Assembly: GCA_963920665.1 (NCBI GenBank)
Contig: OY987266.1
Location: forward strand, 17,675,001 to 17,739,000
Direction: 5' to 3'
Origin: Straminergon stramineum
Lineage: Eukaryota > Streptophyta > Bryopsida > Hypnales > Calliergonaceae
Length of the DNA: 64,000 nt
How positions within the stretch are numbered: the stretch's first letter is position 1; each line of letters starts with the position of its first letter. The notes beneath the pieces are model-generated. The model was not told where the DNA came from. It was given only the letters and a program-made list of their open reading frames with translations, and made no database searches. Positions 4,401 through 53,720 of this stretch are shown one piece after another. The translations under genes were made by a program, and so were the position numbers.

Positions 4401-5490
4401 ACTTGCTAATTGAAGTCCAACCAAGCGTGCGATTTGATGAGTTTCTGTTGGCGACCTTTAACGGTTTTAGTATCCTCTACCGTATTTTAGATTGCGGTCA
4501 GTACCTGTTCCGATTTTGTTTCTGGACGAATACTTCTTTATGAAGCATCTTCTGATAGTCCACTAACAGAGAATCGACTTGCCATACAGGAATCCCGGAG
4601 GTTTGCCGGAATGGACGGGGAGCGTGATGTTAGCCTGTGTATGTGCAACAATGACGACCCTGATGCTTGTGTACCTGCTTCCATACGTTCACCGTTCAGG
4701 AGGGCTTCCTTATGTTCTTGGAGCACTTGGAGCTCTATTGCTGGTGTCTTTAGCAGCTACTGCCCTCAGTGTCTTCCCTGCCTTCACTCCTGACGCAGGT
4801 CGAGCCATTAACGTGGTTCATGTTATCAACACTGATGAAGGTGGAAGTGAGTCCAAGTCGTTTCTCTCACTGGCATCTTTAACTATGGGCAGCTTGAGCA
4901 AAGAATCAAAACACATGAACGACGCAGCCCTTGTGTGCTCTCGAAACGGCACTCTGGACTTCGCAACGTACAAGGTGAAATATGGATGTCAGAAACCCGT
5001 TCCACTTGATGACAGCTTGTGGAAGGACAGACCTTCGTTATTAGTGATCAATGATGACCGGGGTCCACCAAGAGTGACAACAGTGCGGTTGAATGCTGGG
5101 AAAGCTCACCGTTGGTGTCTTGCCATAAATTCAAACAAGATATCAAGGATGCAGCTTGAAGCTGTGACGGACTCTTCTTCTCCATTGATACCTGCCAGTG
5201 ATATTTATGGGGTGAATGGCTGGTATTATATCCAAAGCAACTTCGTCGGTGCTGGTGACCCAAGAAACTTTTTGCTCACTATACAGTGGTCCAAGAATAT
5301 AACCGACCTAGATGCAGCTAAGCTTCTGAAGCTGCGAACAGATGTTAACATTACAACACCTGAAGCTGCAAAGATGCTTGAGGATGTTCCTGAGTGGTGT
5401 CTCAGCTTTGGAAAGTCCACTTCACCTTACCCACTGGCCTATTTGGCAACCCTGCCAGTTGAATTAAGTAAGGAGGCTTATGAAGCTTAG
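1405..5490 (+). CDS. ERMP1: ER metallopeptidase 1-like M28 zinc peptidase, 4 exons
   Basis: Exons 1405-1785, 2228-2579, 2838-4029 and 4590-5490 join in frame with GT-AG introns to about 941 residues, the usual size for this family. ATG 1405 is the first ATG of the frame. A membrane segment near residues 50-75 anchors the N terminus. An M28 peptidase domain follows, then a long hydrophobic multi-pass region in exon 3 and a lumenal-type C-terminal domain in exon 4. The expected dinuclear zinc ligands are present: the HID motif near residue 200, GAGD near 212, GEEE near 246, DLEAMG and YHTKND. In animal proteins GAGD is followed by a second Asp; here the run is DCSSC, which as I recall is the plant form, so activity is probably kept. 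By family, the protein is an ER-membrane exopeptidase; its substrate is unknown. A TTAA element starts about 410 bp after the stop. Confidence 0.92.
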
Positions 5491-20829: not shown

Positions 20830-21380
20830 CTAGATGTGCGTTTAATGGTACCCTATGCCCACTCTACCGTTTCTTTTACCTATTGATGATCTAAAGATGT
20901 GCATTCATCCAACCATCCAAGTAATTGTTGAAGAATACATTGCACTTAAACAGAGCTACTACATTAGCTCCAACTGTATCAACTAAATCACATATCACTC
21001 CAATTGCAACCTTGGTTAGCATGCCAAGTTTGCTACATACAAATGAATGTTAGAAGCAATAAAACAAATTATCTTCCCATTGTGAGCAATTCCTTGTGGG
21101 TCAAGTTGACAAACTTATCCTTCTCAATAGTATAGTAATGAAAAGTTTGAATTTGACTGGCATTGAACAAAAGTACAAAAGCAAAAACTATGGTAGGAAG
21201 ATTGAAAAGCAACTACTAACACAATCAACCACACTAGCATGCAAAGATCATTATCGACAAGTTGTCTAGTTAACAATATTGTTGGCAAAACATACAAGAG
21301 GTAAATGGTAATCCATCATACCTATCTTTGTCCAAATATATATTCTCAATAAACTAAAGAATGTGTGTGGCATAAAGATC
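20830..21380 (-). pseudogene. Importin-beta pseudogene, 3' part (left of the transposon)
   Basis: On the minus strand, 21380 to about 21322 reads the block FIENIYLDKDR and ends at a possible GTATGA donor. A second block at about 21028-20830 contains TKVAIGVICDLVDTVGANV and ends with VKETVEWA, the last HEAT repeats of plant importin subunit beta-1. TAG codons stand at several expected Gln positions. The remaining intron-like gap shows that this is not a processed copy. The 5'-ward part continues at 37500 on the other side of the transposon. Importin-beta is the nuclear import receptor; this copy is dead. Confidence 0.8.
21372..21380. repeat. Left target-site duplication ATAAAGATC
   Basis: The 9-bp direct repeat ATAAAGATC is identical to 37500-37508. 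Nine base pairs is the usual duplication length for Mutator-like elements. It falls within the importin-beta reading frame. Confidence 0.88.
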
Positions 21381-21432
21381 AACGAAGCTAGTATACGAGC
21401 GTAGAGCATAGAGCGGGGGAAATAGAGCGTGG
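21381..21432 (+). repeat. Left terminal inverted repeat
   Basis: GCTAGTATACGAGCGTAGAGC and the following GAGCGGGGGAAA block match the reverse complement of 37438-37499 (GCTGGTACGCGAGCGTGGAGC, GAGCGGGGAAAA). The right copy has one extra seven-base GTGGAGC-like unit. The identity is imperfect, as expected for an old insertion. Confidence 0.85.
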
Positions 21433-21537
21433 AAGGAAAAATTATGTAAAGTTTCTTTTCAGGTTTAAGAAAAAAATGACAATTTTTTATGTTTGATTTG
21501 AAAATATTATGGAATTTTTAAGATACATAACTAGGGT

Positions 21538-21654
21538 CCTATAACCGTGGACTTGGACCTACAACCGTGGATTGAAAATTGTGGTGATTGGTCATAGAAT
21601 GACTAATGAGAGGCCTATGAGCGTGTAAATATACCTTGAACCTATAACCGTGGA
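21538..21654 (+). repeat. Left subterminal repeats CCTATAACCGTGGA
   Basis: There are four copies: 21538-21551 and 21641-21654 exact, 21558-21571 (one change) and 21614-21627 (degenerate). The same motif occurs in the opposite orientation near the right end. Such mirrored subterminal motifs are typical transposase-binding sites. Confidence 0.75.
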
Positions 21655-22161
21655 TGTTAAAACTTTGGAAAAGAAGGTAATTCATGAACCTGGACAAATG
21701 CACTCTGGAAACATTGAACTAGTCTCATGGTGTTGTATTCTACTCTATATTTTATAACTCATGAAGTTTATAGAAATGACATGACACACATTTTGGCAGA
21801 GATTCCCAAATCTTGATGTGGACTAGAATAACTTTAAACCTGGTAATCTTTAGAGTCTACAGAATACATAGGATTCTGCAGGTTTCAGTTTCTCAACATA
21901 AACTTTGACACAATGAATATGTACAACAGATCATTCTTGGGCACACATACATTATGGTCTATGAGGAAGTCAATCATCCAAGATTAAAGAACAAGTGTGT
22001 TGGAAGTTTAAGCTACAACGAGCATATAACCAATGATAGCTTGAACAAAGTAGTGGCCCTTGTAGTCTCACTACATATAAAAAAAGGAATCAAAATACAA
22101 GAAGTTCCTTCATGTGAACTTCTTCACTAAATTAGCACATAGAGTCGCTAACTAGTCTAAC

Positions 22162-25100
22162 CTACAAATTTGTTGCAAGCCTGAAGATGCCACTCTCTAG
22201 AATCCGTTTCACTTCATCAAAGCTGAAACTTGGAGCATGCATGAAAACATCTACTTGTGCATTCAAGTGGCATATGACGATGAAAAGGAAATACAAATGC
22301 TTGCAGTTGGCCCATTGCCCTCTCTTCCCTAATGCCTTTGTTGACATTTCTTTAAAATTAGGGCAACTGCATTCAGGATATGAACCTGTAGTAATTGTAT
22401 ATTGTTCAATGTTAGGCATTGTACTTGAGTCAATATGTAAGATGCACCCAAACCTAGGATGTGGTATCAAAGTCACTTGACGAATAAGTGCCTTCAGGGT
22501 AAGTGCTGAACCGCAATTGTTGGCTTGTTTAGTTGTTGGGGAGCTAGGATTCCTCTTGATTTTTTTTCCAGACCTTGTACTAGGGTGCTCTCCATGATTC
22601 AGTGGAACTTGCATTCCTGATACATCGACTGGTAGATCATGGTCACCAAACAGTCGACAGGGGGAGATTTCAAGACGCTGGGGAAGATGGAAATCGGCAT
22701 TCTGAAGATCTACTATCTCTTTAGAGGTGAGATGAGTTCCCAATTTCACGGGCCAAATGCTTGGCACATTAGGTCTGGATAAAACCCATTTCCTCTTCAA
22801 ACCTTTAACACAACGCTCAATGTCGTCGTTGCAAAAGGAGAACTGCATTGTTTCAATCCTATTTTTCCTATAATTATCCATTTTGCCTGTGTATGTGGGT
22901 GCTGCGGTTCCCTTGTTGTCCTGTACAATCCGTGCCACACATTTTTTCCGTGTAAGGGCTTGTAAGGCAAAGCAAGATTTGGCCGATGTCTTGGGCAATC
23001 GAGCAATATGCCATTGTGATTCATCACAAGCACTCTCTCCGACACTTGTCACTCGAGGGGCCTCTATGGTTGGATAGGTGTTCAATGGATTCATAGGCAT
23101 CTGCACCTCTGTTTCTTCATTGGGTGTAAAAGGTAATGGTTCTTCAAAAATCGAATCCAAATGAATAACAGATGCACTTGCTCGGGTTGTTCTTGTTCCT
23201 CTACGTGGTCTAGAAAAGTTCACTTTGTCGGGGCGGTGTGAATCTTCTTGAGACCCTGGAATCAAATTCGGCATTCGTAATTGAGATCCGAAAACTTCTT
23301 CACCTTCAAAATGTGGATCCCTAATGCAACATTCTCCAGCACCTGGGAGAGTTGCCATGGCATCATTAAGTCCTTTAGGGTTTCCTGTGCGCACTGCATA
23401 CCTTTGTGCTACTCAAAGCTGAAGTTCTTCTTTTCCTGGACCGGTACCAGGGTTTTCATCTTTCAAAAACTGATAGTATCAAACCATCTGCATGAATGCC
23501 CTAACATAGTCGTCAACAGTTGCCACGTATAAATCATTCCCTCTATTTTTGGACTGTTGTAACCATTTATTGTGTACCGTCTCCGCCAAGTTGCATGAAG
23601 GCATTTCTGCAAGTTTATTTGGCGACAAATCCTGAACAATCAAACAACACTTACAGAATGAGAAAATAAAAAATTCAAGGCTTATGATTAAGATGTGATG
23701 TAATCACCTCACACAAAAGAATGCAATAGATGTCAATTGGGGCAAAATCTCTACATGAGAATCAAGAATCTCAATGACATAGAAACAAAAACAACACTCC
23801 ATATAACTTATGAAGATTGGACGTAATAAATGAATGCAAGATGTTCTAAAACTCACCATTTGCATGAATCCTCCCCATTGTCTGTATCGAAAGTGCAAGA
23901 ATGCCAACCACAATTCCAACCTTCGGATCCCGTCTTTAGTTGTTGCACTAGCAGTATGCCACCATGCTCGAATGGCGTGAAATCGGATGTCGGACTCTGA
24001 CGACGATGTTGCATCTTTGTATTGCTTGCATAACTTTCGATGTTGATCTCGAAGGTCGGCGCGAATGTCTGCTACCATATGCTTTTCCATTGATTGAGTC
24101 CAATGGAAGAGACATGTGCGCTCTCGATCTACCATGGGCTTGTTCGGATCACCACTACCATAAACAATTCTTACTGCATTCCAGTTTGCTTGTGCACAGT
24201 CAGCCATGAAGCCCTTAAAATAGGGTAGGGGAATACCATGCCTTCCCATCACTGCATTCAAATTATTCCAAAACTGGCTTTGGGCAATCGAATCCTCAGA
24301 CTGCATGTCGCAAACTGCAATGGTCATTACACGACAGTAACTAGAGTCATAAACATGACAAGCAATTGTTGTCCAATGCTTCACTCGTTTGACATGATCA
24401 AACATGATCCAAGCATCTTCAAGGTCACCATCAGGTTGCATTCGTGTGACCAAATCAACACCACTACCTGGACCTATCTCGGACATCTTGAAGACAAAAA
24501 CTTTATCTGAATCCAATCCTTGACCAGGAAACTTGTTCTCTTGAACATAAGCCCAATTGCTGCATCCTCGAAGCTTCGTAATGTTGTCCATGACTCCAAA
24601 CCTTCGGAAATACTTGAAAGAAGTGACCTCATTCCTAATATTCGGTGAACTCATGAATTTGTACTTCTCAAGAACTGGCATGAGTTCGTCTACTCCGAGT
24701 TTGGCTGCAGAAGTCCCTTCAGGCCGAAGAAGTAGCTCCCCCCAAAACTCTTTGCTTGCTTCTAGGACAATAGAAGAATTGGTTCCAGTCGGATTCCTCT
24801 CGACTTGATCTGCAATTAGTGATTGAGTCCGCTCCTTGGAATCATGATAATTTCCAGCTTTCACAGGATGGTCGTGATTTCCAAAATGAGCACAAGCACG
24901 CCTCATGTCTTCTTTCCCAACAATATAGTATATTTTGGCTGAGCAACTTGCAATACATGAAGGAACAAAAGAGCAAATCTTGCATGTGATTGTTGATCCA
25001 GATGGAGGGTTAGGTCCAACCTCAAATACAACAGGAGAACAACCGTCCCATTCAGTCTCGTTCACTGGTGCTACACGATGCTTTCGTGTAACAAAGTCGC

Positions 25101-25944
25101 ACATAGTGTTGTCACAACGAAGATGACCCACACATGAAGATAGATGGAACGTCAATCCATCATCATTTTTTATGTTTGTTGTATGCGTGTTTGACCAAAC
25201 GTGTCCGTCATAGCGTTTTTCCATTCCACTCAAGAGCTTTGCCTGACCAAGGGAGGTAGAGCATCGTACTAGAGGCAACTCAAAAATAACATCACCATTA
25301 AACAAAGGTGGAATGAAATTAACCTAGTGAATTGGAATTGTAGAATAGTCAACCTTCTTGAATGGATTCCTCGAACCTTTCGTATGAACGAGCTTCCGTA
25401 AATAAGGAACAATGGATAGTCCATTCTGAAACTCCGATGTTGTTTCTAAGAATGGAACTCTCACAGACGACGTCCCTTCCCCCTTCAAAGGTGGATCGTG
25501 AGATTGCTTGAAGACCTTGTGTGGAGGTGATGATTCATCTGAATCGTCGTTGTCAAGTTCTACAACCTCTACTCCTGTCTCAAGCTTAACTGTGCTTGGC
25601 AAAGGCCTCTCGAGAGTGAAAGAAGTTGATGATCTGGGAGTGGTCTTAGTACAAGGAACCTCCGACACCGATACGGGTAAACCATATGCTAAATACGTTC
25701 CTGGTGTAAGATGCCATTCCTTACAAGGGCTTTCAAGAACAGGCTCTCGGCCAAGGGTATATGCCAATTCTCCACTCATACTATCAAATACTTCTTTATC
25801 AATATGAAGTGAACTCTCAGATAGATGAAATCGAATACTCAAACGAAACGCACTGACAACAACATATCCCTTGTCACCAATTGGAAAAGAGACGGGGATT
25901 GCCTCTCCAGCAACCCTCAAAACAACCATTAAATCGGAAGACAT
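22162..25944 (-). pseudogene. MULE-type transposase with SWIM finger, three in-frame stops
   Basis: One frame runs from ATG 25944 to 23857, a GT-AG intron (23856-23632) follows, and the same frame continues from 23631 to the TAG at 22162, about 1185 codons. It is broken by TAG at 25326-25324, TGA at 23481-23479 and TGA at 23415-23413. The N-terminal 200 residues are unrecognised. Next comes a Cys/His-rich region ending RRACAHFGNHDHPV, similar to the WRKY-GCM-type zinc fold of MULE transposases. The RNase-H-like core contains MFDHVKRVKHW, FMADCAQANWNAV and the CLFHW motif. MPSCNLAE opens exon 2, and a SWIM finger (CSCPNF to WANCKHLYF) lies near the end. It would have cut and joined the element ends. 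All three stops can arise from CAG or CGA by C-to-T change. Confidence 0.86.
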
Positions 25945-28342
25945 CGTTTAACTTGATTGCATTGCATGACCTAAAAACCTAATCCCTCCACAAATTGGTA
26001 GTACTAGTGAAGGAGGTGAAAAGAGAAATCGCTACATATTTGAAAGGCCGATGCCGGAAGTCTAACATGTGTGGATGAATACAAAATTTGCATTAAAGGA
26101 AAATGTTACAATCACTAGAGTGTACAGCAGTTATGCATAGTTAATGGCAGTACACTAAGCAATGACGGTTGAGGAAACAAAGACATTAATTGACGAGCGC
26201 GAACATCCAAAAATGGAATGAATTTTATGATCATTTGGACAGTCAAGTTCAAGGCCATGACAAGAAGGTTAGATTTGATGGTATTCATGTGATCTCTTTA
26301 ATATAATCAGATGTATAGTCTGGACTTCAATTTAATGAAATAAGGAATTGGCAACCAACAGTAGAAAATATTGTATTTAAATTCAGCAGATGTCTGAGAA
26401 TTGGTAAGCTCATTTTTTTTACATTTATTATTTCTTGATACGACGTAAGTATAGTGTTTGCATTCTTACTCTAGAGGTTATTGTAGTAAAATCAAAGAAT
26501 TTCGTAGACTCAAGAAAGAAATTAGGATTCCCTAAATTCTACCTGGAATGAGGCATGGAGGGTACAAATTTATCTGACTCCCATCCCCCATTTGATGATA
26601 GAATTATGCATTTTTCTGCCATTTTCGTTTTCGACATGGCCGTCTCCTAAATGTCATATGTGGATGTCGTCTATCATTTTGGTGGTGGAGTTTTATTCAC
26701 TCCCTAAATTTGTATGATTAATTAATACTGTCTTTTACTTCGAATAATTTCCATAGAGTATCCATGGGAAGAGTTCAAGTTGGTGATCACCATACCTCAG
26801 AAATGCAAGGATATAGGCTTTTATAAAAACGAGGATAAAAAACGGGTCTAAGTATATTGCAATATTAGGAGAGTACTCAAGGTCAAGTATAACAAACCTA
26901 GAATTTTAGATGATTTATCAAGTTCCAACGGCCGAAGAAAACTGCCTCAAAATTTTCAAATGTAATTTATTTACTTATTTGAGAATCCCATCTCCTAAAG
27001 GAAAATTACGAAAGATGCCTTTAGCAAATTATGCCCCAATGGGTAAACTAATAATGAAGTCACTATACATGTTAGAATAAGTTCCTGGGGAAAATTTCCA
27101 TACTATCTAACGACCCGAAAAAAGGCTTTTAAATTATTAATTCTCCTAAAAACTCTTTGGATTGACTCTAAAAAGTTTAGGAATATCCTTTCATGAGTTC
27201 AGAACAATTCGTTCATTGATCATCCTTACTTAAAAATCATCGATATGGACCAGCTAGCTCATGCCAAAATACTGATGCCCTGGACAAATTGGTTCCATTC
27301 ACCAAGTGAGAGTGTACCCATTGAACTCCTAAACGAGGAAGTGGAAGATCTAAGACCGACGGATGACAAATAATCCTTTAATGTTAGACAGATCTCTGAC
27401 TATTCATGCTCGGTTCAGGGTGAGAAACGGTCGATCTGCCATAGGTTAATGACAATGAATATTTAAGTAGTTGTTGTCCTACAGTACAAAAAGGGATGTC
27501 AAAGTAGATATTGTCACATAGTCCCAGAAGGGAGGATTTAAACAATTACCAGACTCTCAATTAATGGTTAAGGAGATAAGTATAAGGGTGATCCTGGCAT
27601 ATTCAAGACTTCCGTTAGAATGACAAATTCAAGGGACTGATATTAAAAATAAATATTTTGATCAATACTAACATCACAATATTTAAATCATTATAAGTAC
27701 ACAAGATCATATTCCTAAGTTCTTGAGGCTGTGATATACCTGATTATCAATGAACTATGAATTTCCTTGAGAGAAAATCAAAATATTGATATTTTATATT
27801 TCTAGGGGATGGCAAATCCAAAGGCCTGACAACGTTGTTAGACCAGAATAATAATTTAGCAGTGTCCCGGAATATCAAATCTACCAGAGAGAGCATAACT
27901 AAATTTCACTAACTCATTCTGCCGTTCGAAAGGCACATCAACAGGAGCCACAACCCATCAGTCCATAGACGAGAACCAAACGAGATTAGTTCATCCGGGA
28001 TATTTTCAATTTCTGTGTTCATAGATTAGGGCATCACCCGAAGACTTCATCTAAGCATCCAGTTCAGCAGGCACATGGACTTTATTAATAACTAAAAATT
28101 AATTAATTCAAGAACGGAATGAGCATCCCAGGTGCGTCCCACATGCCAGTTGAATGTTGGAGCAGTGAACCAGTGCCCCACCCTCGAGCTTCGGTAGTGA
28201 GCTGTTTCCTTTTGAATACCGATTTCAATGTGAGAGCTGAATGAACTTCAAGCGGTGTCTGTCTCTCATCGTGTAATTTATGCTTTACCAGTTCCTTAAT
28301 CTATTAGTAAGACCAATCATAACACTTGCAACGTCAAAAATT
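25945..28342. other. Spacer between the divergent genes, with decayed coding-like blocks
   Basis: No intact gene is seen. Plus-strand stretches at about 26755-26990 and 27060-27380 read as protein-like in short runs (for example WEEFKLVITIPQKC and HAKILMPWTNWFHSP), interrupted by stops and frame changes; I do not recognise the family. The transposase promoter should lie just above 25944, and the promoter of the rightward gene just before 28343. Confidence 0.4.
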
Positions 28343-31300
28343 ATGGAGCGCAACTTACGGTCAAGGCACGTATTGGGAGGGGAAGCGGCAGTGGAGCTTC
28401 CGAGTCAAGCGCCGACAAATCAAAATCCTCAGGTAGTCAATCACCTCGCACCGTTTGCTATACTATGATGGCTCCTAGAATACACATTCTAGGGGGCTGC
28501 AGTCAAGACTCACGCGAAATGCGGCCCTTCAAATTGTAATGAGAGCAGGTGGTACAACACCACTCTCGAACAGGGCCACAACGTCATATTTCAACAGATG
28601 GGATAATGTTTTCCAGAGATTGGCTCTGTTACTGAAACTCGAACTGTTCTCGGCTAAGGCCGCGAAGGACTCTTCAAGTTGCGCCACAGTCTCTTCTACT
28701 AGCAAAAATCCTCAAACCCAAAACCTTCGGTGCTTTTGGAAGAGCATCCATCCAACTCGGGGCAGAGAGGAGTCACTGTGAGACAACCATCTTTCGATTT
28801 TTTCATGTTATTCGTCTTCTGGTGTCCGAGGCTGTTGATCCAGGCACAATAGCTGTCACCACGCACAGCCCATCTCGGGGCCAAGAGGGACTCTGATTGG
28901 GTCACTAGCTTACGATATGGTCTTCTCGTTTGTTTTTTCTTGAGCCGGATGATAATCCAGGCATAAGAGTCGATATCAAGGAGACTCTGTCATGGCACCG
29001 AGAGGGTCCCCAGCGGGGGACCAGCTTACGATTTGATCTTATCATTTTTGTTTTTCTTAATCAGGCCCTTGATCCAGGCGTAAGAGCCGAATGAAAGGAG
29101 ACTCTGTCTCGGCACCGAGAGGGACCCGAGTTGGGGCTCTAGCTTACGATTTGATCGTGTCTTTTTTCTTCTCCTTGATCACGCAGCTGGTCCAGGCGTA
29201 AGAGCCGGAAGCATCCCTAGGCCGTCTCGGCACCAAGAGGGACCCCAGTTTGGGCTCCAGCTTAGGATTTGATCGTGTCTTTTTTCTTCTCCTTGATCAT
29301 GCAGCTAGTCCAGGCATAAGAGCCGTAAGCATCCCCAGGTTGTCTCGGCACCAAGAGGGACCCCAGTTGGGGAACCAGCTTACGATTTGATCGGGTTGTG
29401 TTTTGTTTATTTGAGCAGGCAGCTGCTCCACGCGCAAGAGTTGTGAACATGCCCAGGTTGTCTCGACACCGAGAGGGACCTCAGTTGGGGAACCATCTTA
29501 GGATTTGATCGTGTCTTTTTTCTTCTCCTTGATCACGCAGCAGGTCCAGGCGTAAGAGCCGGAAGCATCCCCAGATCGTCTCGGCACCGAGAGGGACTCC
29601 AACTAGGGAACCAGCTTACGATTTGATCGTGTTGTGTTTTTTTTATTTGAGCAGGAAGCTGGTCCAGGCGTAAGAGCCGTAAGCATGGCCAGGCTGTCTC
29701 GGCACCGAGAGGGACCCCAGTTGGGGCTCCAGCTTAGGATTTGATCGTGTCTTTTTTCTTCTCTTTGATCACGCAGCTGGTCCAAGCGTAAGAGCCGGAA
29801 GCATCCCCAGGCTATCTCGGCACCGAGAGGGACCCCATTTGGGGCTCTAGCTTAGGATTTGATCGTGTCTTTTTTCTTCTCCTTGATCACGCAATTGGTC
29901 CAGGCATAAGAGCCGTAAGCATCCCCAGGCCGTCTCGGCACCGAGAGGGACCCCAGTTGGGGCTCCAGCTTAGGATTTGATCGTGTCTTTTTTCTTCTCC
30001 TTGATCACGCAGCAGGTCCAGGCATAAGAGTCGGAAGCATCCCCAGGCTGTCTCGGCACCGAGAGGGACCCCAACTAGGGAACCAGCTTACGATTTGATC
30101 GTGTTGTGTTTTTTTTATTTGAGCAGGAAGCTGCTCCATGTGTAAGAGTTGTGAATACGCCCAGGCTGTCTCGGCACCGAGAGGGACCCCAGTTGGGGCT
30201 CCAGCTTACGATTGAATCGTTTTGTGTTTCTTTTATTTGAGCAGGCAGCTGGTCTAGGCGTAAGAGCCGTAAGCATGGCCAGGCTGTCTCGGCCTCGAGA
30301 GGGACCCTAGCTGGGGAACAAGCTTACAATTTGATCGTGTCGTTTTTTTTATTTGAGCAAGCACTTGATCCACGCATAAGAGCTGTGAACACGCCCAGGC
30401 TTTCTCGGCACCGAGAGGGACTCTATTGGGAGAACCAGCTTACGATTTGATATCGTTATCTTTCTTTCTTTACATAACGATGCTAATCCAGGCGTAAGAG
30501 TAAGGACCCCAAAGATTATCTCTCGGGGCCGAGACGGTTCCTCCTGGGAAGACCAGCTTACGATTTGTTCTCATTGCTTTTCTTTCTCATGAGCAGGCTG
30601 CTGATCCCTGCCTAAGAGCCCTGACCACGTACAGCCCGTCTCGGGGCCGAGAGGGACTCGGATAGGGTCACCAGCTTAGGATATATTTTCCTCGTTTTTC
30701 CTTTTGGTGAGCAGGATGCTCGTCCTGCCGTAAATGCTCGAACCACACACAGCCCGTCTCGTGGCTGAAAGGGTCCCCTCCGGGGCACCAGCTCAAGACA
30801 TAATCTCTGCTTTATTGTTTTACGTAGCCCAGGCTGTTTGTTCATTACATATATTTCTTCGAGGCTTTTTTCTATTGTATCTTTTTCAACTTCATGGATT
30901 TTTCTTTATTCCATCTCATCATTGGTTCCGCGTGCAGTTTCTTTCGTAATTTGAGCGTGTTTAAAGTTTCTGATTGGGAAACATTTAAGCTTGTGAAATT
31001 AATATGGGGGGTACTTTCTCTAGGTCCACAGTATCTTAGGATAGGAAAAGAACTCTGGAGTTAGGATAACTGTTGTATTCCTCTATTATATGTGTCTCGA
31101 AGAATCTTTAGATATAGTCTTGAAGCTAAGATCTTAATCCCATTTGTCTTTCTCCAAGTCCCGGGAGAGGGCCTTATGTATAAATGTTTATGAACATTCT
31201 ATTCTACATTTAGGATAATCGTAAGTTAATCTCCAACTATGTTGACCTAATATGTGAGATATACGATTTGCCAGGTTATCCAAGAGATGGCGGCGGCTGA

Positions 31301-34300
31301 TGATGTGATTCCAAGTCCGTCTGTAGAGGCTACTGGGCCACCAGATGCAATTAATCTCCCCATCGAGATTGATAGGGTAAGCCTGGATGCTTTTCAGAAA
31401 GAGCTTGACTTTGCTCTTAATAAGATTTACAGAGATCGGAAGATTGCACTAGGTTCCTCAAGTTGCACCTCTGTTGGAGAAAACGAACCTGGAGCCTCTA
31501 GTTTAGTGGGGTCCTGTGAATTTTGTACTTGTGGCCATGAAGACGTAGAGGTTACATCTAGACTGGAAGATGATGATGACATTCTTATACTATGTTGTGG
31601 CCAATACAGGGCGATCACTGTAGCCTGCAATCAAGGAATTCATTGACCTTCTTCATAATGATAATTGTTTTATTTTCTTCCAGTATTTTGGGTTTTGTCC
31701 TTATTCCTTACGCATTACATATTCATGGGGCCACTCTATTTTTTATCCAATGTATTGCAAGTCAATGTCCTTAATTAAAATATTAAATGCCTGATTTCCA
31801 TCTTGTAGATTGTCGATGATATGGAGCCTTTGGCCACTTTGGAAAAGTCCTTTGGGTCCACAATGGTTGATGTCTCCCCCCAACCACCGATAGATTCTTT
31901 TGGAGATGATTTGGAAGAAGAACCTCATTCCGGGGAAGAAAAGGATTTATTGGAGGATGACATTAGGAGGACACACAAGATGGACACCGTCTCTATCATC
32001 TCCAGTTTGAGATTAACGACATCAGATCTTTCGAGGATGCGGATTCCGCTCTGTCGGTTGGTTCCAATGCCGATGGTTCGTCCAACCCTCTCTTGTGACT
32101 TGATATTATTGGAGCAACAATTTGTCCATGGCTACGAGGAGGGAGCCCGTGTCTTTTATGTCTCTATTTCAGATGAGCAAGGACAAACTGGTGTTTTCAC
32201 TGCTGAAGAGAGGGAGAAATGGGGCCCGTTGTGGAACTCGGTGAATGATGACTTCAACATGCATCTGAGGTCACAAGCAACATTAAAGCATTTAGTGGAT
32301 TACAAGTTTTTCGTCTGTGATGGGAACCACCGCCGTATTGCGTGGATGAACCATATCGAGAGACTCCACAAGACGGAGAGAGAATGGCATATCTTAGTAG
32401 ACTCCATCATCTTAGACACGAGGAATCGTATTGGCTTAGCGATGCAGGCCATGCATGACATTAATAAGTAGGATCTTCTAACCTTTTTCTACAACTTCTA
32501 GTTTGTGATGAATGCATGTTAAGTTTGAACATTAAATTTATGGGAAGTAATTTTATATCTAACTTGGTGAATTTATTCTTGTACAGAAACACTGAGAACT
32601 CCCATGTCAAGAACAATTTAGTTCATACACTTTACCATGTCCAAAAGTACGGACTTATGGAACTAGAGAAGTTCAATGAGCTTCTAAGTCCTGAAGAGGT
32701 GAAGACTTGCCAACAAAGTGCACGAAAGACTTGGTATTCTATGCCCCTAGAGGTTTTTACCTCATTCATTTTCAAGGTATGATTGCCCTCATATTATGTT
32801 ATTGTTTTTTTTCCTATACATAATTTGTTCAATCTATTTGAATTACGTTCTTACAGCCTATTCCCTACCACTTGTTTTTGGTTGACTTCAGCACGAGATT
32901 GCAGCGTCAGCTGATACTGCAGTTCGAAGATACACTGAAGATACTCTGGTATTTGATTTCACTAAGGAGGGAGTAGCAGTGGCTATGCAAGCTTCCATCA
33001 AGGACTCCACTGAGAAGTTATACAAGAAGTTGTCGAAGATTGTTTCGGTGGCCAATCCCGGATTTGGGCGAGAGTGGCTGGAGGAGGTATTATCCTATTT
33101 CCATATAATTTGTGAGGGTGTTTGTTTTCATTGTTCCAATGTTCCTATTCTAATGTGTCTTATCTTTTACAGATTGAAAGGCATTGGAGCTTATTTCTCG
33201 TTCCAGAGTTAACCCTAGAGAAGCTACAATTGATTGCTACTACCAATGTGAGTCCAAATCACAAGGTGAAATGGCTAAAGTGGATTAACGCCTCAGCTCC
33301 ATCCCGAGAGGCTCGTAGATTTCCACCCCGCCCAGTCAATGAAGAGAAATTGATCCTTTTTCTCTCTAGAGCCAGTTGGTATGCTGGGGTAAGGATTTCT
33401 ACGTTCATTTGTTGATTCATTTGGTCATTCTCTATTCTAATCACTTTGTAGTCACAAGTTTTTACTTTTACAATTATTTAATTCATTTTTTTTTAATTCA
33501 TTTTTGGCCAGATGGAGGATGTAGCTATGGAAATGTTTGATTCTATTATCCGTTCCGACAATATCCCTATCAACTTCTCTGTCTCGACTGAACCCGAGAC
33601 ACTCATCGAATATTTGGAGGGTTGGAGAATGAGGCTCTGGGATCATGCTTACACTGGGGTTTTCAAGGGAAATGACGTCTTTAAGAAGTCGGACTCTTTC
33701 AAGGACTACAAAGGATCCATTCTTGCGGTAAAACGCTTGATATACAAGTTCGTTTCTATTTTTTTTTGGTCAATTTAATTGTTTGTCCTAGACATTATTT
33801 TTGTGTGACCTATTATGGTTTCGGTTCTATGGAAACTTCATATAGAATGTAATCTTTTTTTTTAATATACTGTTTTCGGAATTCTTATTTATGTATTTTA
33901 CTTCCCGAAAGTAAATTGGGATGGGACTTTTGTGAAGACCTATCACCGACATGTCACTACTTGACAGGTCCTTCATGGAAGAGGATTGTTTCTCTGTAGT
34001 ATGGTTTTAGAATATTGGGTTGCTACTTCTAGATCCTCCAGCTATTCCATAGAGAAAGTGATCTCTATAGTTTGAGTTTTACATCTTCTAATTCTGATTT
34101 ATATTCATAGGTTAGTTCAGATGCATTCTAATACCTATGGTTTTGGTCTAATTTGTTGAACTCGTATGTTCATGTTGTCATTCTATATGTTTACGAATAC
34201 CTCAAGAACTTTATAGCATTCCTATTTTTATTCTTATGGTTCTCTATTACCTCCTTTTTGTTGTGTTCAGGTATTTCAAGTTCGAATTATATTCCAAGAA

Positions 34301-36454
34301 AGCTATTCAGAAATCCGATTTACCACCATTTCTCACTACATGGTTAGACCGCTCCTCCCCAGATTGCATGTTCTCTCCGTGGCAGCTGAAGAACTGGACA
34401 ACTCCCCATCTCCAAGCTTGTCCTTGGTACCTCGAATGCAACCAAGGATTCATTCCACCTGATGAAATGCTTCTCTTTGAGACATTGAAGGATACTGCCG
34501 TCGTTGAGCCGGAATTCAATGAGTTTGCAGGATTGGATGATGATGCTAGAGCTAAAGCGATCAAGCGCCGGGAAATATCTGATAAGAAAAAGGTGGAGAG
34601 ATGGGAGGAGGCCAAGAAGAAGACTGAAGAGAACAAAAAGAAGAGGCTTGCTCCTAAGGCTGAAAAAGACCAAGAGAAGGCCAGAAAGAAGGGCACCAAG
34701 AGGAAGGCAGAGACACCGTTGCAAGAACCGGCAACAAGTGCAGGGGAGATGAAAGACACTTCATCCGGGTTTTCCCTAACTCAAGAGCGCCTGTTGCATG
34801 GGCTGAGTCCAAGAGTTCAGAACATGGAACCGGTTCCCGACATTGACGAATGCATTTTAAATTTATCTCTTGGGAATCTTCATGGTTCCGGAAAGGACTC
34901 CTCGCGCTCATCATACAACGATGTTCTTGCTTTTTTGGCCATGGTAAACCCATCATTGGACATTGCTAGTCGTTGAATTCTCAATTTCGTCTAGAATAGT
35001 ACAAGTGAGTAAGATTAACTTTAATTTAGTTCATTTCAAAACCCTTCGTTTCTCATACCTCTTATGTTACTATTCCATCTCTTCTAACTTCAACTTTTTA
35101 TTCCAGCATTCTAGCGACAAGGACCGATACTTTAACGGTGCTCGGAGTACTCAATCAGCAGTGGACTTGATTATTGTTGATGTCCCTGAGGGACTTCATG
35201 TTCCTACCATTTCTTCTCCCCCGAACCCTATTCCCCAATGGAATGAATTTAGTGAGGATTATTTGATGCCCGTTTTTGACTTTGCTCTTGAGTATCTTCA
35301 TGACCAAGGTGGTATTCTTATCATGTACCCTGCCAATCGGACCCACAAAAGCCACCTTCTTGGCTGCTGCAAAGAATACGGGTTCAAGATCGTCCAGACT
35401 TGGTTGGGAATGAATCGTTTACATCTTACATCGCCTGTGGATCCAAATATGACGGTAATTTTTTCTCTCTTCTTCCATATTTATCACAAATTTGCTTTTC
35501 AATCATGCTATGTTCTTACTCTAATTGTTTTGCAGACTATGAGGTTTACAATATCTCTTGTGCTGAAAGAGACTGCACCCCCATTTGCATTCCAAGTGGT
35601 TCCTTCTCATGGCGCGGTTGGTGTGAATGTCAGTAAAGACGACATTCTCCAAAACTTCTGTGGCAAAGATGATGTTGCCCTGAATAGCAACAAACCCTGG
35701 CGAGGTCCTCGTGAAAAGGCACGGCCTTTTATGCAGATGCTCATCAAGGCATGTTCTGCACCAGGCGATGTCATCATGGACTGCACTGCAGCTACTGGTT
35801 CATTTTTCATTTCTTATTGTTGGTCTCCACAACCCAAATTCTCATTAATTTAAATTTAATGTCGCATTCTAATCATTTTTGGGGGCTAATTCACAGGTTC
35901 CAACATTCACGCCTGTCGTGCTACTCAACGTCATATTCTAGCATTTGAGGAGGACAAAGCTATCTTTGATGCTCTCATTGCTCCGTTCATGCGCACTGCG
36001 ACTGTTACTCAGTTACAACCGCATCGGTCAGATGTTATTTCCCTCGATTTGGACGATGAGGAGGTAGCCCCCCAACGTGTCGTGAAGACCTCCCGATTCA
36101 GTAAGTAAGTTCCCCTTTAATCTCTTTGTATCGGAGTCTTTCTAACTTTCTTATCCTTTTCTGGTCTAATCTGTTGTATTCTTTTTTTGCAGGCAAGCTC
36201 CAGAAGTGAGGAACCGCAAACACGTGCCGTTTTTTGCATCACCACGTTTTTTTCCAAGCCCCCCCAAGCCATTTCAGCTTCCAGTCTATGCAGAGGCAAT
36301 TTCCAGGGATTTTGTAGCTTTTGATCCTAGGGCATCTTCTAGGGCCCATTCAATTGATCCTCGCGTTTTAGATTTTGTAGACGACTGTGCTATAGAGTTT
36401 GATTCGCAGACATCACATAGGGAGGGTAGTTCATCCTTATCTCACTCTAGCTAA
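28343..36454 (+). CDS. ParB-like domain fused to beta-class DNA N4/N6-methyltransferase domain
   Basis: The proposed exons are 28343-28432, 31275-31550, 31809-32467, 32587-32776, 32892-33086, 33173-33388, 33512-33747, 34271-34943, 35107-35454, 35536-35797, 35897-36104 and 36193-36454. All phases agree and give about 1204 residues with no internal stop. The first exon and the end of the second are the least certain (a donor at 31377 is also possible, and ATG 31287 could start translation). A ParB/sulfiredoxin-type domain lies near residues 195-320, with CDGNHRR near 293. A Lys/Glu-rich, probably nuclear and coiled segment lies near 690-760. The methyltransferase domain has the permuted order: VDLIIVDVPEG near 870 replaces DPPY, and PGDVIMDCTAATGS near 1040 replaces the SAM loop. 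The loss of PP and of the aromatic residue suggests weak or no catalysis. Its role is unknown; DNA or element-end binding is inferred. Confidence 0.76.
28474..28493. repeat. Perfect 8-bp inverted repeat
   Basis: CCTAGAAT and ATTCTAGG are separated by the four bases ACAC, just inside the predicted first intron of the ParB-methyltransferase gene. It may be a hairpin or a dimer-binding site; there is no second copy to support either. Confidence 0.5.
28795..30815. repeat. Palindrome-bearing tandem array, about 17 units of about 119 bp
   Basis: Seventeen centres of the motif TCTCGGcaCCGAGA or variants lie at regular steps of 115-120 bp (for example near 29109, 29224, 29343, 29699, 29816, 29935, 30053, 30171, 30405, 30524, 30643). 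Each unit also carries ACGATttgATCGT, CCCCAgtTGGGG and a GCGTAAGAGCC block, with a pyrimidine tract TTTTTTCTTCTCC in the central units. Outer units are more diverged. In units near 30524 and 30643 the two spacer bases change from CA to GG while both arms of the first dyad stay matched. The array lies in the predicted first intron of the ParB-methyltransferase gene, between the two element genes. There are no unique spacers, so it is not CRISPR-like. It may be a protein-binding platform. Confidence 0.9.
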
Positions 36455-37305
36455 GGTACTGATGTAGTACTCTAGTGTTTTTGGTGTATGATGGTGATGC
36501 AACATTTGGAGATTTCTGTGTTTCATTTCTATGCAATGTCATTGATTACCATTTGGATGTCATTATCTTTTAATTGGATTGTACCTAAACTACATTTTTC
36601 TAAGGGGATTAGTGTGATCCCAAGACTCCATGTTTGTGACAATCATCGTGTCGTTTTTTCACTCTCCCTTTTGAACTCCAAAATTCCTTGTCCTTTTCAT
36701 GATAATGTCACCAAACCATGAAGTGGTCGATGCCTAAACCCTAAACTAACCCCTTAAACACACCCTTGCATCATTGTGATAAAAAGGTAGGGGTTTCATT
36801 AGTTCATTGGTCATAAAAGATGAGTATGGCATGTGCTGCAAAAAAACCCACTGTGACTATGAAAACTATGGTGATCTTCCATATACATTATGATACGTCT
36901 TTTAGTAATTTTTTACCCTCCAAATACTTAGGATCTTCTAGGGCTTACCATTGAAAAATAACATTTGTATACACATTGACCCTAAAGCAATCTTGATTAT
37001 GAATAACTTTGTATTCTTCCAACTTGAGATCTTCTTTGTCTTCTACTCCTTTTCGAATATTATTCATTGTACATCTATACAATGCATTAGTCCTAGGCAT
37101 TTTTATGTATTCATTAAATCAAAGACATATGTTGTACACTTTTTATCTTTCATGAAAATCTTAGTTTTTTTCATGTATAAAGTGTGAATTTCTATCCTAT
37201 TATTATATTTGTAATTGTTAAGCCTCTCATGTGACTGATATGCTCACTTCATATCCATAATAGACCTTGTCACCTATTCACTTCACAGACGAAACCCTTT
37301 CCGCT
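36455..37305. other. 3' flank of the ParB-methyltransferase gene inside the transposon
   Basis: The first part is probable 3' UTR; the rest is AT-rich with no gene or repeat that I recognise before the subterminal repeats. Confidence 0.4.
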
Positions 37306-37408
37306 AGCACGGTTATAGGTCAACATCTGATACTTGAATTTGAACTCATGAAATTTTTGCCATAAATTGATTCCACGGTTTTAGGCACCCTAAATCCACG
37401 GTCATAGG
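37306..37408 (-). repeat. Right subterminal repeats, inverted CCTATAACCGTGGA
   Basis: The reverse-complement forms lie at 37306-37319, 37372-37385 and 37395-37408 (TCCACGGTTTTAGG, TCCACGGTCATAGG). They mirror the four copies near the left end and support a single element. Confidence 0.75.
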
Positions 37409-37437
37409 TTTAATTCATTTTCCCCAAAATCTTTAAT

Positions 37438-37499
37438 CCCCGCTCGCTTTTCCCCGCTCTACGCTCCACGCTCCACGCTCGCGTACCAGCATTCCCCGA
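37438..37499 (-). repeat. Right terminal inverted repeat
   Basis: This is the reverse complement of the left terminus with one extra short unit. It ends ACCAGCATTCCCCGA next to the right target duplication. Confidence 0.85.
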
Positions 37500-37508
37500 A
37501 TAAAGATC
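37500..37508. repeat. Right target-site duplication ATAAAGATC
   Basis: Identical to 21372-21380. Keeping one copy and removing the element restores a continuous importin-beta frame. Confidence 0.88.
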
Positions 37509-51200: not shown

Positions 51201-53720
51201 AATCTTATCAATTAGGATTTTCACTTTAATCTTTGGATTTTCTATGATGGCTTAATGAAAACTCTCATTTTTAGAGAAAGACTCCAAATCACAAACGGAT
51301 TACACCATTGACTTTCAAAGGCCATTTTTAGATTTCAAAACCCCTCTATCCATTTTTCATTGCAAAAAATTCATTGAAACTTAGCGCCAACTTTAAATTG
51401 AAAAGAGGTAAGAACCAAACTTTTGGAGTTTATCTTCTTTGAAAAAAGTAACTAGCCTAGGCTCTTCAAAAGGTAAAATGCAACAAAAATAGACCCGCTT
51501 AGGCCACATTAATTTTATATGTTTTCAGAATACCAATCAACTCCACCATCAATCTTCCATTTTGCCGGAATTGAAAAATCTTATTGGTTTAGGTCCCATT
51601 AGATATTGCAATGCCTTGAAACTTGTCGAAGCACATTATTAACATAAAAAAGCTATCTAATTTTTAATGAGTTTTTATCGCAACCTAAGTAATTTCTAGG
51701 AATTTTCCATCATAGGTTTTTGGCAATTGACCATCTAGAAGAAGATCTTTCAAGAATCATAAAATTTTGGAACTCTATATGGAACCTCTCATAGAATCTT
51801 TAAAAAGTTGTTCATGCACTAGAAGAAAATGAAGGGTTATGCAACTACGAAGAGAAATTAATTTTTGAATTGCATCGGACATTTGCAACTAGTGATAATT
51901 TGAAAACCCATAGTTGTTGTGGACAAGTCGCATGTCAAATTGTAGTTGTACAACAAAAATGAATTGTTTCTCATCCAACAACTTACTTGGAGTTCAGTTG
52001 ATGAACTCTTCTGACATGGTTGCGTACATGGTATTGCTTATGTGCAATTTGTTAGCGACTTATTTGTGACTAGTGTATGACTTGTTTGCAACTCATCTGT
52101 GACCTCATATGCCACTTGTTTGTAACTCATTTGTGACTTGTATGCAACTTGTTTGTAATTCATATACAACTTGTTTGTGACTCATATGCAACACATTTGT
52201 GATTCATTTGCGACTTGTTTGTGACTTGAAGAATTTGTAAATTTTGAAGTCTATAAAATTTAAAAATCTATAAATTGTAGATTTCTTAGAATTCTATTAA
52301 TGGAATTTATTACATAAGAATATAACAACTTACAAGTCTTATATACTAAACTAATGGTACTCTTGACAATTGATATGGAACTACTAATATGAGACAATGG
52401 AAAATGACTATAGGAACGACTAGGAAATGACTACAAAACAATTAGGAAACAACTATAGAACAACTAAAAAATGATTATAAAACAACTAGGAAACAACTTG
52501 CTTGCGACTACTAATATTTTGGAGTTGCATTCTAGTCATATTCTAGTGGTTTAATAGCCGATTCTAAGTCGTAGTATAGTCATAAAATAGTTGTCTGTAT
52601 TTCTAATAGTTTTCTAGTCATTTTCTGGTTGTCTTCTAGTCGTAGTATAGACATTTTCTAGTGACATTGTAATCTTTTCTAGTCTTCTCTTGGTTGCAGT
52701 CTAGTCGAATTTTACTCGTTTTGAAATTGTTTTCTAGTCATCTTCTAGTTCATTTCTAGTTGCATTGTAGTTGTTTTGTAGTTGAACTCTAGTTGTTTTC
52801 TAGTCAAATTGTAAACAAAATTAGATACTATGTGACTTGGGTGATGACGAAGTGGACCTCTCAAAATGTAGAGTTGTCCACATTAACAATTGTGATGAGT
52901 ACCAGATATAGAATACCTCATGTTTAACTCTAAATGACTACTTTGTTACAGTCCCATAATCCTACACTTCATTCTACGACTACTTCGAGACTACAACTAC
53001 ATACCCTTTCCATTTTGTGCAAATAGAGAGGATTATCATTGTAGGATAGTTGTATAGGACACTTAGTTTCATGTCAGTTGATTGTGGTGAACATGTTTTC
53101 CTTCTAGTGATGCTCATATTTTTACTCTATACATTCAAAGAAGAAGATCAAAAATCCCACTATCTCCTTTAATTACTAGTGAATAAAAAATCTTTCACAC
53201 AAAAAAGAATCTTGGCAAATCCATTTTGCCACTAAATTCCTAGAGTGATTTTATCCCTAGAACACTATACTTTAGTTGTAGATGCCCTTCACCAATCCAT
53301 CTTGAGCTTATATTACCTATGGACCAACAATTGGGATTTCTACTACTTCTCATAATCAACTAGGAAATTGAAACCTATCATTGAGAATTGACTTGGGGAT
53401 CTCAATGGGTTCCCTTAGACCATTTAAGCTTGCTTGAGTCACATGCACGATAGGTTTAGTAGTTTAGGCATTGTTTACTCAATATTCACAATTTTCATAA
53501 TTTTTGGATTTCTACCCTATTCACGTACAGAACCTAGGATTATTTTACATATAACATTTTAATTTAGACCAATAACCATATTGGTATTTAAGATAAGTAT
53601 TTGGGCTCAATACTTTTCTTTGGAATTTTTGCATAATAATTTTGACTTAAACTGAAAAAATAGAAAAAAAAATAATGAGTCATAAGTGACAAATTTGGGG
53701 CTCACACTCAAGCCTCAAGG
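48250..53720. repeat. Long non-coding dispersed repeat D, copy 2
   Basis: It has the same block order as 39240-42510, including GGGCACCCCACC, GTAATCTTATCAATTA, AGTAACTAGCCTAGGCTCT and GGGGCTCAC. It is longer because a CACTA-type element is inserted at 51817-53109; the interrupted phrase GCTCATATTTTTACTCTA resumes right after that insert. No coding sequence is seen. Confidence 0.55.
51817..53109. mobile_element. 1.29-kb non-autonomous CACTA element
   Basis: Starts CACTAGAAGAAAA and ends TTTTCCTTCTAGTG, perfect inverted ends but for one base, with the 3-bp duplication ATG (51814-51816 and 53110-53112). The interior is non-coding and built of short imperfect repeats: TTTGTGACTCAT/ACTTGTTTG units at about 52030-52230, AACAACTAGGAAA units at about 52400-52500 and TTCTAGTCGT units at about 52510-52815. 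The empty site agrees with repeat D copy 1. Confidence 0.82.

Follow-up and report, generated by a model that had tools for sequence, protein, structure and literature searches.

The element and its borders

The window, a stretch of 64,000 nucleotides from Straminergon stramineum, contains a member of a large family of DNA transposons that carry two divergent genes (Table 1). One of these is a transposase gene, broken in this copy. The other, here called gene 2, encodes a protein with a ParB-like part and a methyltransferase-like part. A first-pass annotation of this DNA had described inverted termini, mirrored subterminal motifs and two head-to-head genes, and all three are borne out. The termini are 84% complementary between 21397-21433 and 37437-37473.

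Table 1. Features of the transposon copy in the window
Feature	Position	Strand	Remarks
Whole transposon	21380..37497	.	ends CAACGAAG ... CATTCCCC; register set by relatives with 10-bp duplications
Left target-site duplication, GCATAAAGAT	21370..21379		9/10 identical to right copy
Right target-site duplication, GAATAAAGAT	37498..37507		9/10 identical to left copy
Left terminal inverted repeat	21380..21436	+	imperfect; inner edge approximate
Right terminal inverted repeat	37437..37497	-	imperfect; inner edge approximate
Three left subterminal motifs, CCTATAACCGTGGA	21538..21654	+	starts 21538, 21558, 21641
Three right subterminal motifs, inverted	37306..37408	-	starts 37306, 37372, 37395
Transposase gene	22162..25944	-	three in-frame stops disrupt it; single intron, 23632-23856
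In-frame TAG, transposase gene	25324..25326	-
Two in-frame TGA codons, transposase gene	23479-23481 and 23413-23415	-
C-x-C...C-x-H motif	22297..22371	-	SWIM-like by eye only; no Pfam match
Palindrome array	28755..30652	.	17 sites with <=2 mismatches to TCTCGG-NN-CCGAGA, 10 of them exact; most are spaced 118 bp apart
Gene 2, ParB-like/methyltransferase-like	31287..36454	+	1170 aa, 11 exons, open frame
Gene 2, exons 1-4	31287-31550, 31809-32467, 32587-32776, 32892-33086	+
Gene 2, exons 5-8	33173-33388, 33512-33747, 34271-34943, 35107-35454	+
Gene 2, exons 9-11	35536-35797, 35897-36104, 36193-36454	+
DGNHRR motif of ParB-like region	32319..32336	+	residues 259-264, exon 2
Methyltransferase-like region	35107..36104	+	about residues 812-1083
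Motif IV position	35179..35193	+	DVPEG vs family norm DPPY
Motif I (GDVIMDCTAATG)	35764..35797	+	runs on into next exon

A target duplication of 9 bp had been reported as well. A perfect 9-bp repeat, ATAAAGATC, is indeed present at the borders first given; in the register of the family, however, the duplication is 10 bp, and the present copy matches at nine of the ten positions. Read in that fixed register, the ten copies with both ends (window included) match at 10, 10, 10, 10, 10, 9, 9, 8, 6 and 1 of 10 positions, against an average of 2.57 and a maximum of 6 for a control of 90 mismatched pairings. The copy matching at 6 of 10 does not, of course, stand above the control in this register, because mismatched pairings also reach 6. 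The 10-bp duplications and the element ends are common also to two diverged copies; in C8b, a close relative, the target duplication is absent.

At no more than two mismatches, the subterminal motif CCTATAACCGTGGA occurs three times forward at the left end and three times in reverse at the right end, and nowhere in the window outside the element. All ten close relatives carry 3-5 such motifs at the left end, and nine of the ten carry 2-3 at the right (the right end of the tenth fell outside the sequence piece used for the count). The two diverged copies have 1 and 0 at the left, and 2 and 1 at the right.

The transposase gene

An intact transposase in the window copy is ruled out by the TAG and the two TGA codons in frame. 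With these stops, the copy lacks the means to produce a full transposase and would rely on other copies; some other family members do have a stop-free aligned transposase core.

The first-pass annotation had assigned the product to the MULE transposases and given it a SWIM finger. Neither assignment found support in Pfam. The three transposase ORFs of the window copy match no family at E<=1, and its N- and C-terminal ORFs match none at E<=10. When the transposase cores of four family members were scanned at E<=10, the sole match, in one of the four, was to an unrelated family. The MULE profile PF10551 is found at 26 places in the source genome (326 Mb), none of them at this element. Comparison by hhalign of the transposase profile with eight of the host's PF10551 places was negative, but both profiles were too shallow for this to count, and the best structure profile (E 0.37) belonged to an unrelated protein. 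A single-sequence fold of the core (mean pLDDT 33.9) gave a model too poor for use. SWIM or other zinc fingers are common but not universal in MULEs; here, the C-x-C...C-x-H motif is seen by eye, and no Pfam family matches at E<=10.

MULEs have terminal inverted repeats around a DDE transposase. Here, inverted repeats are present, and the residues D, D, C-x-x-H and E are invariant across four aligned transposase members, the putative triad being assigned by eye. The 10-bp duplication falls inside the range of 8-11 bp given for MULEs (PMC6446971). By profile, the MULE label for this element is not supported.

Gene 2

The first-pass annotation had presented gene 2 as a complete gene for a ParB-like/methyltransferase fusion. 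The open frame and its exons stood up to analysis; the splice sites were picked by eye, and the exon parts are conserved in relatives. The two domain assignments fared less well, the ParB likeness being weak and the methyltransferase match borderline.

The suggestion of ParB likeness, which we regard as weak, comes from the DGNHRR motif and from profile matches. DGNH is present in 11 of 13 gene-2 copies and exact DGNHRR in six of the 13; its arginines we take to be as in the ParB/sulfiredoxin type. The ParB-like profile phrog_1033 weakly matches two of six gene-2 members (best E 0.04), and no Pfam ParB family matches any of the six. A DndB match in one of the six (E 0.075) is no better than a match to the unrelated Imm63 (E 0.05), also in one of the six. 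Structure profiles returned no ParB structure for this region, the best (E 1.6) belonging to an unrelated protein, and a single-sequence fold of the ParB exon (mean pLDDT 34.2) was again too poor for use.

Pfam scans of gene 2 gave only N6_N4_Mtase and a chance-level DUF7523, and scans of both element genes found no ParA. N6_N4_Mtase (PF01555) matches five of six gene-2 members at E<=1; the best match (E=7.6e-6) scores 26.5 bits, against a cut-off of 26.7. The NCBIfam model CcrM gives E=0.011. Motif IV precedes motif I, the order of the Beta-class N4/N6 DNA methyltransferases. The catalytic motif of that class is (D/N/S)PP(Y/F/W). Here, motif IV reads DVPEG in eight of 13 copies and a one-residue variant of DVPEG in the other five; DPPY occurs in none, and its aromatic residue is missing. 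Catalysis of methylation by the gene-2 protein is doubtful, because motif IV is DVPEG and DPPY is absent from all 13 copies.

Among viral contigs, eight stretches matched a pattern, and none encodes a relative. In the 20 phage records listed, of 63, the matches were to the methyltransferase end only (best E 2e-4).

The family and the pairing of its genes

Capture of gene pieces is frequent in plant MULEs. Gene 2 might, therefore, be a captured passenger without a role for the transposon. The family, sought throughout the 326-Mb source genome, makes this very improbable. At least 27 of the 35 gene-2 places among the matches listed are paired with a scored transposase copy no more than 16 kb away, and all 27 pairs are head-to-head, as the first-pass annotation had proposed to check; ends and duplications are shared. 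Across copies, gene 2 and the transposase rise and fall together in identity (Spearman 0.90). Gene 2 of the window, compared with 12 copies, gives dN/dS of 0.07-0.35 in the ten with a finite estimate, and the transposase gives 0.07-0.72 in 29 of 29 comparisons; both genes have been under purifying selection over deep divergence. Pairing, tracking identities and purifying selection together rule out chance capture.

A fixed host locus is ruled out by the many places that share ends, duplications and transposase pairing. Neither of the refuting outcomes named in the first-pass annotation occurred: other copies of the family do contain gene 2, and the gene does not sit at a conserved, non-mobile locus. 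Eight of the 35 listed gene-2 places, and many transposase places, are unpaired; this is not decisive, because most candidates were unscored.

Palindrome clusters upstream of gene 2

In seven of the eight copies examined, the palindrome TCTCGG-NN-CCGAGA forms clusters within the 3.0-3.5 kb that precede gene 2. For the array in the window, 100 shuffles gave a mean of 0.17 sites and a maximum of 1. Among perfect 6-k-6 inverted repeats (k=0-10), this one alone is present in all six of the upstream regions first examined, which hold 24 exact sites. With two mismatches allowed, there are 6-20 sites per upstream region, against shuffle means of 0.04-0.22. Two further regions were taken after the motif was fixed, one of which has two exact sites. 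Upstream of gene 2 in C6e, the most decayed copy, there are no exact sites and one at two mismatches. In about 315 kb of other DNA, scanned as six sets, there is no exact site. In most copies, palindromes were scored only in the part upstream of gene 2.

The palindrome is kept although the DNA around it differs from copy to copy. The repeat units that bear them are 117, 118, 140, 213 or 288 bp long, or there is no array, and the upstream regions align only in short stretches, except that of the window with that of C7a. Within arrays, the conservation of the palindrome is mixed, other stretches being in some cases just as well kept or better. Windows at least as conserved number 1 of 78 in the window copy, 16 of 160 in C8e, 22 of 95 in C11e, 39 of 76 in C7a and 43 of 240 in C2d.

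The clusters sit between the two divergent genes.

A candidate self-recognition system

On balance, the element probably carries a self-recognition system, in which the gene-2 protein would recognize the palindromes upstream of its own gene, in a parS-like or VANC-like manner. In the manner of ParB on parS, a dimer of the protein would bind the candidate palindromes by means of the ParB-like part and would load onto the element from the array. By loading there, it would tell its own family from the remaining genome. More speculatively, the bound protein might shield the array and the divergent promoters from host silencing, as VANC does for VANDAL, or it might instead coordinate the transposase. 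For the methyltransferase-like part, binding of S-adenosylmethionine is conceivable, as is methylation with an altered motif; an active enzyme is not required. Of the earlier suggestion that the second protein binds or marks the DNA of its element, binding thus gains a candidate site; active marking is not supported, since motif IV is DPPY in none of the 13 copies.

The palindrome could, of course, have a different user, either the transposase or some host factor. Here, the clusters would be promoter or enhancer elements bound by the transposase or by a host transcription factor, with gene 2 acting elsewhere, for example at the ends of the element. Their position between divergent genes suits this, and tandem repeats can also hold regulatory sites. 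The subterminal motif CCTATAACCGTGGA, however, is distinct from the palindrome and more typical of the sites that transposases use, and a 14-bp site with two-fold symmetry, lying next to a ParB-like gene, is a better fit to the gene-2 protein. The clusters lie, moreover, upstream of gene 2 in nearly every copy examined, with the caveat that scoring was mostly confined to that part. Such a regulatory role is possible but unlikely.

Somewhat less likely again is that gene 2 encodes an active N4-cytosine or N6-adenine methyltransferase that acts on the element and for which the palindrome would be a site of recognition or docking. The PF01555 and CcrM matches and the motif order argue for this, as do the frequent ParB-N6_N4 methyltransferase fusions of phages (PMC12704722) and the 4mC or 6mA activity predicted for a protein of the alga Ectocarpus (PMC12477816). 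Against it stand a best Pfam score just under the cut-off and a motif IV that is never DPPY.

The self-recognition reading can be carried further, to a form that we consider plausible, yet somewhat short of probable. In this form, a DNA transposon would house a eukaryotic counterpart of ParB-parS. A protein derived from ParB, its methyltransferase domain non-catalytic or re-purposed, would recognize a palindrome kept by selection in ever-rebuilt repeats, and each element could thereby find, clamp and de-silence its own family in a sequence-specific way. If so, a bacterial-type pair of DNA clamp and site would be at work in a eukaryotic nucleus on behalf of a selfish element. The proposal made for algal transposons, that accessory proteins bind and mark their own element, would become concrete and testable, as the pairing of a single protein with a single 14-bp palindrome. 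Besides VANC and VANDAL, there would then be a second, independent case in which tandem repeats evolve under the influence of a protein for self-recognition.

Relation to known systems

The first-pass annotation knew of no described MULE with a ParB/methyltransferase partner. Such a partner is not new in kind. Among the literature matches listed, judged by title and abstract opening, none describes a ParB/methyltransferase element from a plant MULE, a moss or another land plant, the exception being a paper on Ectocarpus (PMC12477816). The Sola1-1 transposon of that alga is reported to carry a ParB-like/DNA-methyltransferase protein of 1104 aa (1170 aa here) on the strand opposite the transposase, and the paper cites similar proteins for transposons of green algae and of red algae (PMC12477816). 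As here, ParB-like and N4/N6 methyltransferase-like parts are joined in one protein; gene 2 shares the layout, with both domain calls weak. Those authors also suggest binding and modification of the element's own DNA, and the available text describes no palindrome array (PMC12477816). The likeness is one of layout, and the Ectocarpus element is filed as Sola1. Sola1 transposons have 4-bp target duplications, as against 10 bp here.

The VANDAL elements of Arabidopsis are Mutator-type elements that likewise have a gene for an accessory protein, VANC, which acts against silencing (PMC5735166; PMC10398659). VANC21 motifs accumulate in VANDAL21 through tandem repeats, so that there, too, a short motif is amassed as fast-changing repeats in noncoding DNA of the element (PMC5735166). 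The Pfam matches of gene 2, limited to those given above, set it apart from VANC. VANC motifs vary between families and subfamilies (PMC5735166; PMC10398659), whereas the 14-bp palindrome is kept across deep divergence.

Retrotransposons bearing DNMT genes, known from dinoflagellates and charophytes, also pair a transposon with a DNA methyltransferase gene; they differ in being retrotransposons with a C5-type enzyme, and the abstract names no ParB part (PMC5890265).

The ParB proteins of bacteria and phages resemble the gene-2 protein in the DGNHRR motif. Another likeness is the fusion to an N6_N4 methyltransferase, which is frequent in phages (PMC12704722). The sequence similarity is weak, however, ParA is absent from the Pfam scans, the host is a eukaryote and gene 2 has introns. 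Clusters of palindromic parS sites lie beside the ParB gene. The palindromic clusters here similarly adjoin gene 2, and it is these clusters, rather than the kind of partner already reported in algal transposons, that are the new observation.

Co-inheritance of the two genes

The source assembly comprises 326 Mb in 59 contigs, and the window lies at C4:17675001-17739000. Here, the starting point is a two-gene element, in which a transposase gene stands head to head with a ParB-like/methyltransferase-like gene, called gene 2. The transposase core had 1164 first-look candidates in the genome, and the 80 that were scored gave 81 matches at 57-100% identity. Gene 2 had 2682 exon-level candidates; from the 40 scored, at least 190 matches were obtained. 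With one row for each place, 35 gene 2 places stand among the matches listed. At 27 of these, a scored transposase lies within 16 kb, and all 27 pairs are head to head, the recurrence that the first-pass annotation had asked about. Chance would deliver such a neighbor at about 0.8% per place. Further, the identities of the paired genes are correlated (Spearman 0.90, 27 pairs). The other eight places have no scored transposase within 16 kb (two have one at 18.8 and 24.6 kb); because 1084 candidates are unscored, this does not show that the transposase is absent.

Genes of the element in the window
Feature	Window positions	Strand	Structure
Transposase gene	22162-25944	-	one intron; three in-frame stops
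Gene 2	31287-36454	+	11 exons, 1170 residues, no stop; splicing by eye

The exon parts of gene 2 are conserved among relatives, and 11 of 12 other copies align over most of its length (941-1166 residues). Each of those 11 carries at least one stop (one in C8b, thirteen in C6e); C11d, when realigned, has 2 stops over 1065 of the 1170 residues. These alignments used the exon borders of the window, which may account for a few of the stops. Among the 13 copies read, that in the window is the sole fully open gene 2.

Decay of dead copies should raise dN/dS, not lower it. With stop codons excluded, comparison of the window with 12 copies of gene 2 gives values of 0.07-0.35 in ten (Nei-Gojobori); in two (C4e and C2e), dS is beyond the method. 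The small values are rough, because synonymous divergence is saturated in distant pairs; nonsynonymous change stays at 0.04-0.21. For the transposase core, dN/dS is 0.07-0.72 against 29 copies.

Ends and superfamily of the element

The 16.1-kb element had been annotated as a MULE with inverted termini, mirrored subterminal motifs, and a 9-bp target duplication. The inverted termini are present. So is the mirrored 14-bp motif, which in the window stands three times in forward orientation at the left end and three times in reverse at the right; it is retained in close copies, with fewer in two diverged copies, C2d (1 left, 2 right) and C11d (0 left, 1 right). The flanking repeats also exist, but relatives, which set the ends as CAACGAAG... 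at one side and ...CATTCCCC at the other, make the duplication 10 bp.

This was compared in a fixed register in the ten copies having both ends found, the window included (the right end of an eleventh, C3b, is outside the fetched piece). The two flanks of a copy match at 10, 10, 10, 10, 10, 9, 9, 8, 6, and 1 of 10 positions, while flanks of different copies, paired as a control, match at a mean of 2.57 of 10 and a maximum of 6 (90 pairings). The copy with six matches, C4b, has a C run at the border; once the register is shifted, its match is exact. By eye, the flanks of the two diverged copies are TTGCAAATAG/TTGCAAACAG in one and ATCTGTTTTG on both sides in the other. C8b, with one match, has no duplication, and is perhaps a recombinant between two elements. 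It is a close copy at C8:19986100-20005100 (ends L053 and L054), with one stop in gene 2.

Target duplications of MULEs are described as 8-11 bp (PMC6446971). Thus, the duplication length, the termini, and a finger-like motif fit the MULE label, but the profile does not: the transposase matches neither a MULE family nor any other meaningful family in Pfam, and its matches to structures are at chance level. The element is therefore called MULE-like. The same genome holds separate MULE loci (L001-L008), matched by PF10551 (26 places); comparison using shallow profiles found no relation between these and the transposase of the element.

Domains of the gene 2 protein

At E<=1, five of six members match Pfam N6_N4_Mtase, the best at 7.6e-6 with 26.5 bits where the cut-off is 26.7; NCBIfam CcrM matches the methyltransferase part at E 0.011. 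The nearest real relative among solved structures is DpnA (E 0.012 by single sequence, 0.25 by profile). Motif IV of the N4/N6 methyltransferase family is usually DPPY. In gene 2, DPPY is found there in none of 13 copies; eight have DVPEG, and five a one-residue variant (DVLEG twice, DVPKG, NVPEG, DVPES). Motif I is DCTAATG. Thus, a methyltransferase fold is likely, whereas catalysis is doubtful.

The ParB region of the window aligns with that of five other members at 74-84%. Eleven of 13 copies retain DGNH and six the full DGNHRR; in the others, changes lie mostly at the arginine codons. Matches are weak: phrog_1033 ("ParB-like partition protein") in two of six members (best E 0.04), and DndB in one of six (0.075), no better than the unrelated Imm63 at 0.05. 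Profile search with this region found no ParB structure. According to a 2025 survey, fusions of ParB folds to N6_N4 methyltransferases are common in phages, and a change of the conserved P-motif arginine abolishes nucleotide binding (PMC12704722).

A palindrome upstream of gene 2

Between the two genes of the window lies an array of 118-bp units, most of which contain the palindrome TCTCGG-NN-CCGAGA, exact or approximate. In the window and five other copies, sites were counted over the 3.5 kb preceding gene 2. In shuffled versions of these regions (100 each), the mean is 0.04-0.22 sites, never more than 2.

Palindrome sites in the 3.5 kb upstream of gene 2
Copy	Sites at <=2 mismatches	Exact sites
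Window	17	10
C7a	20	3
C2d	6	2
C8e	9	5
C11e	9	1
C5e	7	3

The surroundings of these sites are largely not shared. Array units are 118, 117, 288, 213, and 140 bp long among copies, and no array was found in the C5e region. The window and C7a are 68% alike over 1.4 kb; other pairs share nothing, or pieces of 21-36 bases, several on palindrome sites (at most two listed matches per pair). A motif-blind scan for perfect 6-k-6 inverted repeats (k 0-10) found the palindrome alone common to all six regions, with 24 exact occurrences; the next-best repeats overlap it and are present in three. Inside the arrays, the best-conserved stretch is not in every case the palindrome. With within-array conservation thus mixed, the main argument is its recurrence in unrelated repeats.

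Exact sites are absent from the other fetched DNA: the window outside the element (47.9 kb), the element without its center (12.6 kb), host MULE loci (26.3 kb), transposase loci (133.4 kb), element ends (32.9 kb), and gene-2 loci (62.4 kb). At <=2 mismatches these hold five sites (two in transposase loci, three in gene-2 loci), and at <=1 mismatch two, both in the C5e gene-2 locus (L068 2921 and 3082), inside it and not upstream.

Two further 3-kb upstream regions were examined as a prediction. That of C4e has two exact sites; that of C6e, the most decayed copy, has no exact site and one at 2 mismatches. C4e and C2d are 83% alike over 1.8 kb, their arrays sharing only 47-82 bp pieces among the first six matches listed.

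The 68 sites in six copies hold 62 deviations; 46 of these occupy one of the four CpG positions, and 52 are changes of C to T or G to A. This excess is expected if host CpG methylation eroded silenced copies, and is a sign of past cytosine methylation in the arrays.

Proposed function and known systems

In bacterial ParB-parS systems, two-fold symmetric sites are clustered beside the ParB gene, much as the symmetric palindrome of the element is clustered by a ParB-like gene. In the VANC/VANDAL system of Arabidopsis, as here, one motif is repeated in a fast-changing tandem array within the element that carries the accessory gene; VANC21 is reported to bind YAGTATTAY and remove silencing (PMC5735166; PMC10398659). 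By these two likenesses, the gene 2 protein is proposed to bind the palindrome and to protect or license its own element, in a putative anti-silencing role.

The first-pass annotation knew of no MULE with such a partner. Partners of this kind are not unheard of, however: Sola1-1 of Ectocarpus has a 1104-aa protein with the same two parts, likewise on the strand opposite the transposase (PMC12477816). Retrotransposons carrying C5 methyltransferases are also known (PMC5890265). As far as the papers listed by literature searches show, a MULE-like element with a ParB/methyltransferase partner is new, as are the palindrome clusters and the measured co-inheritance and selection of the partner genes.

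Elsewhere in the window

Positions 2783-5490 hold a host-gene candidate, with a Peptidase_M28 ORF (E 2.1e-21) followed by a second long ORF that has no Pfam match. This resembles an endoplasmic reticulum metallopeptidase gene. Positions 52043-52804 hold dense low-copy tandem repeats, with units of 11, 22, 33, and 44 bp.
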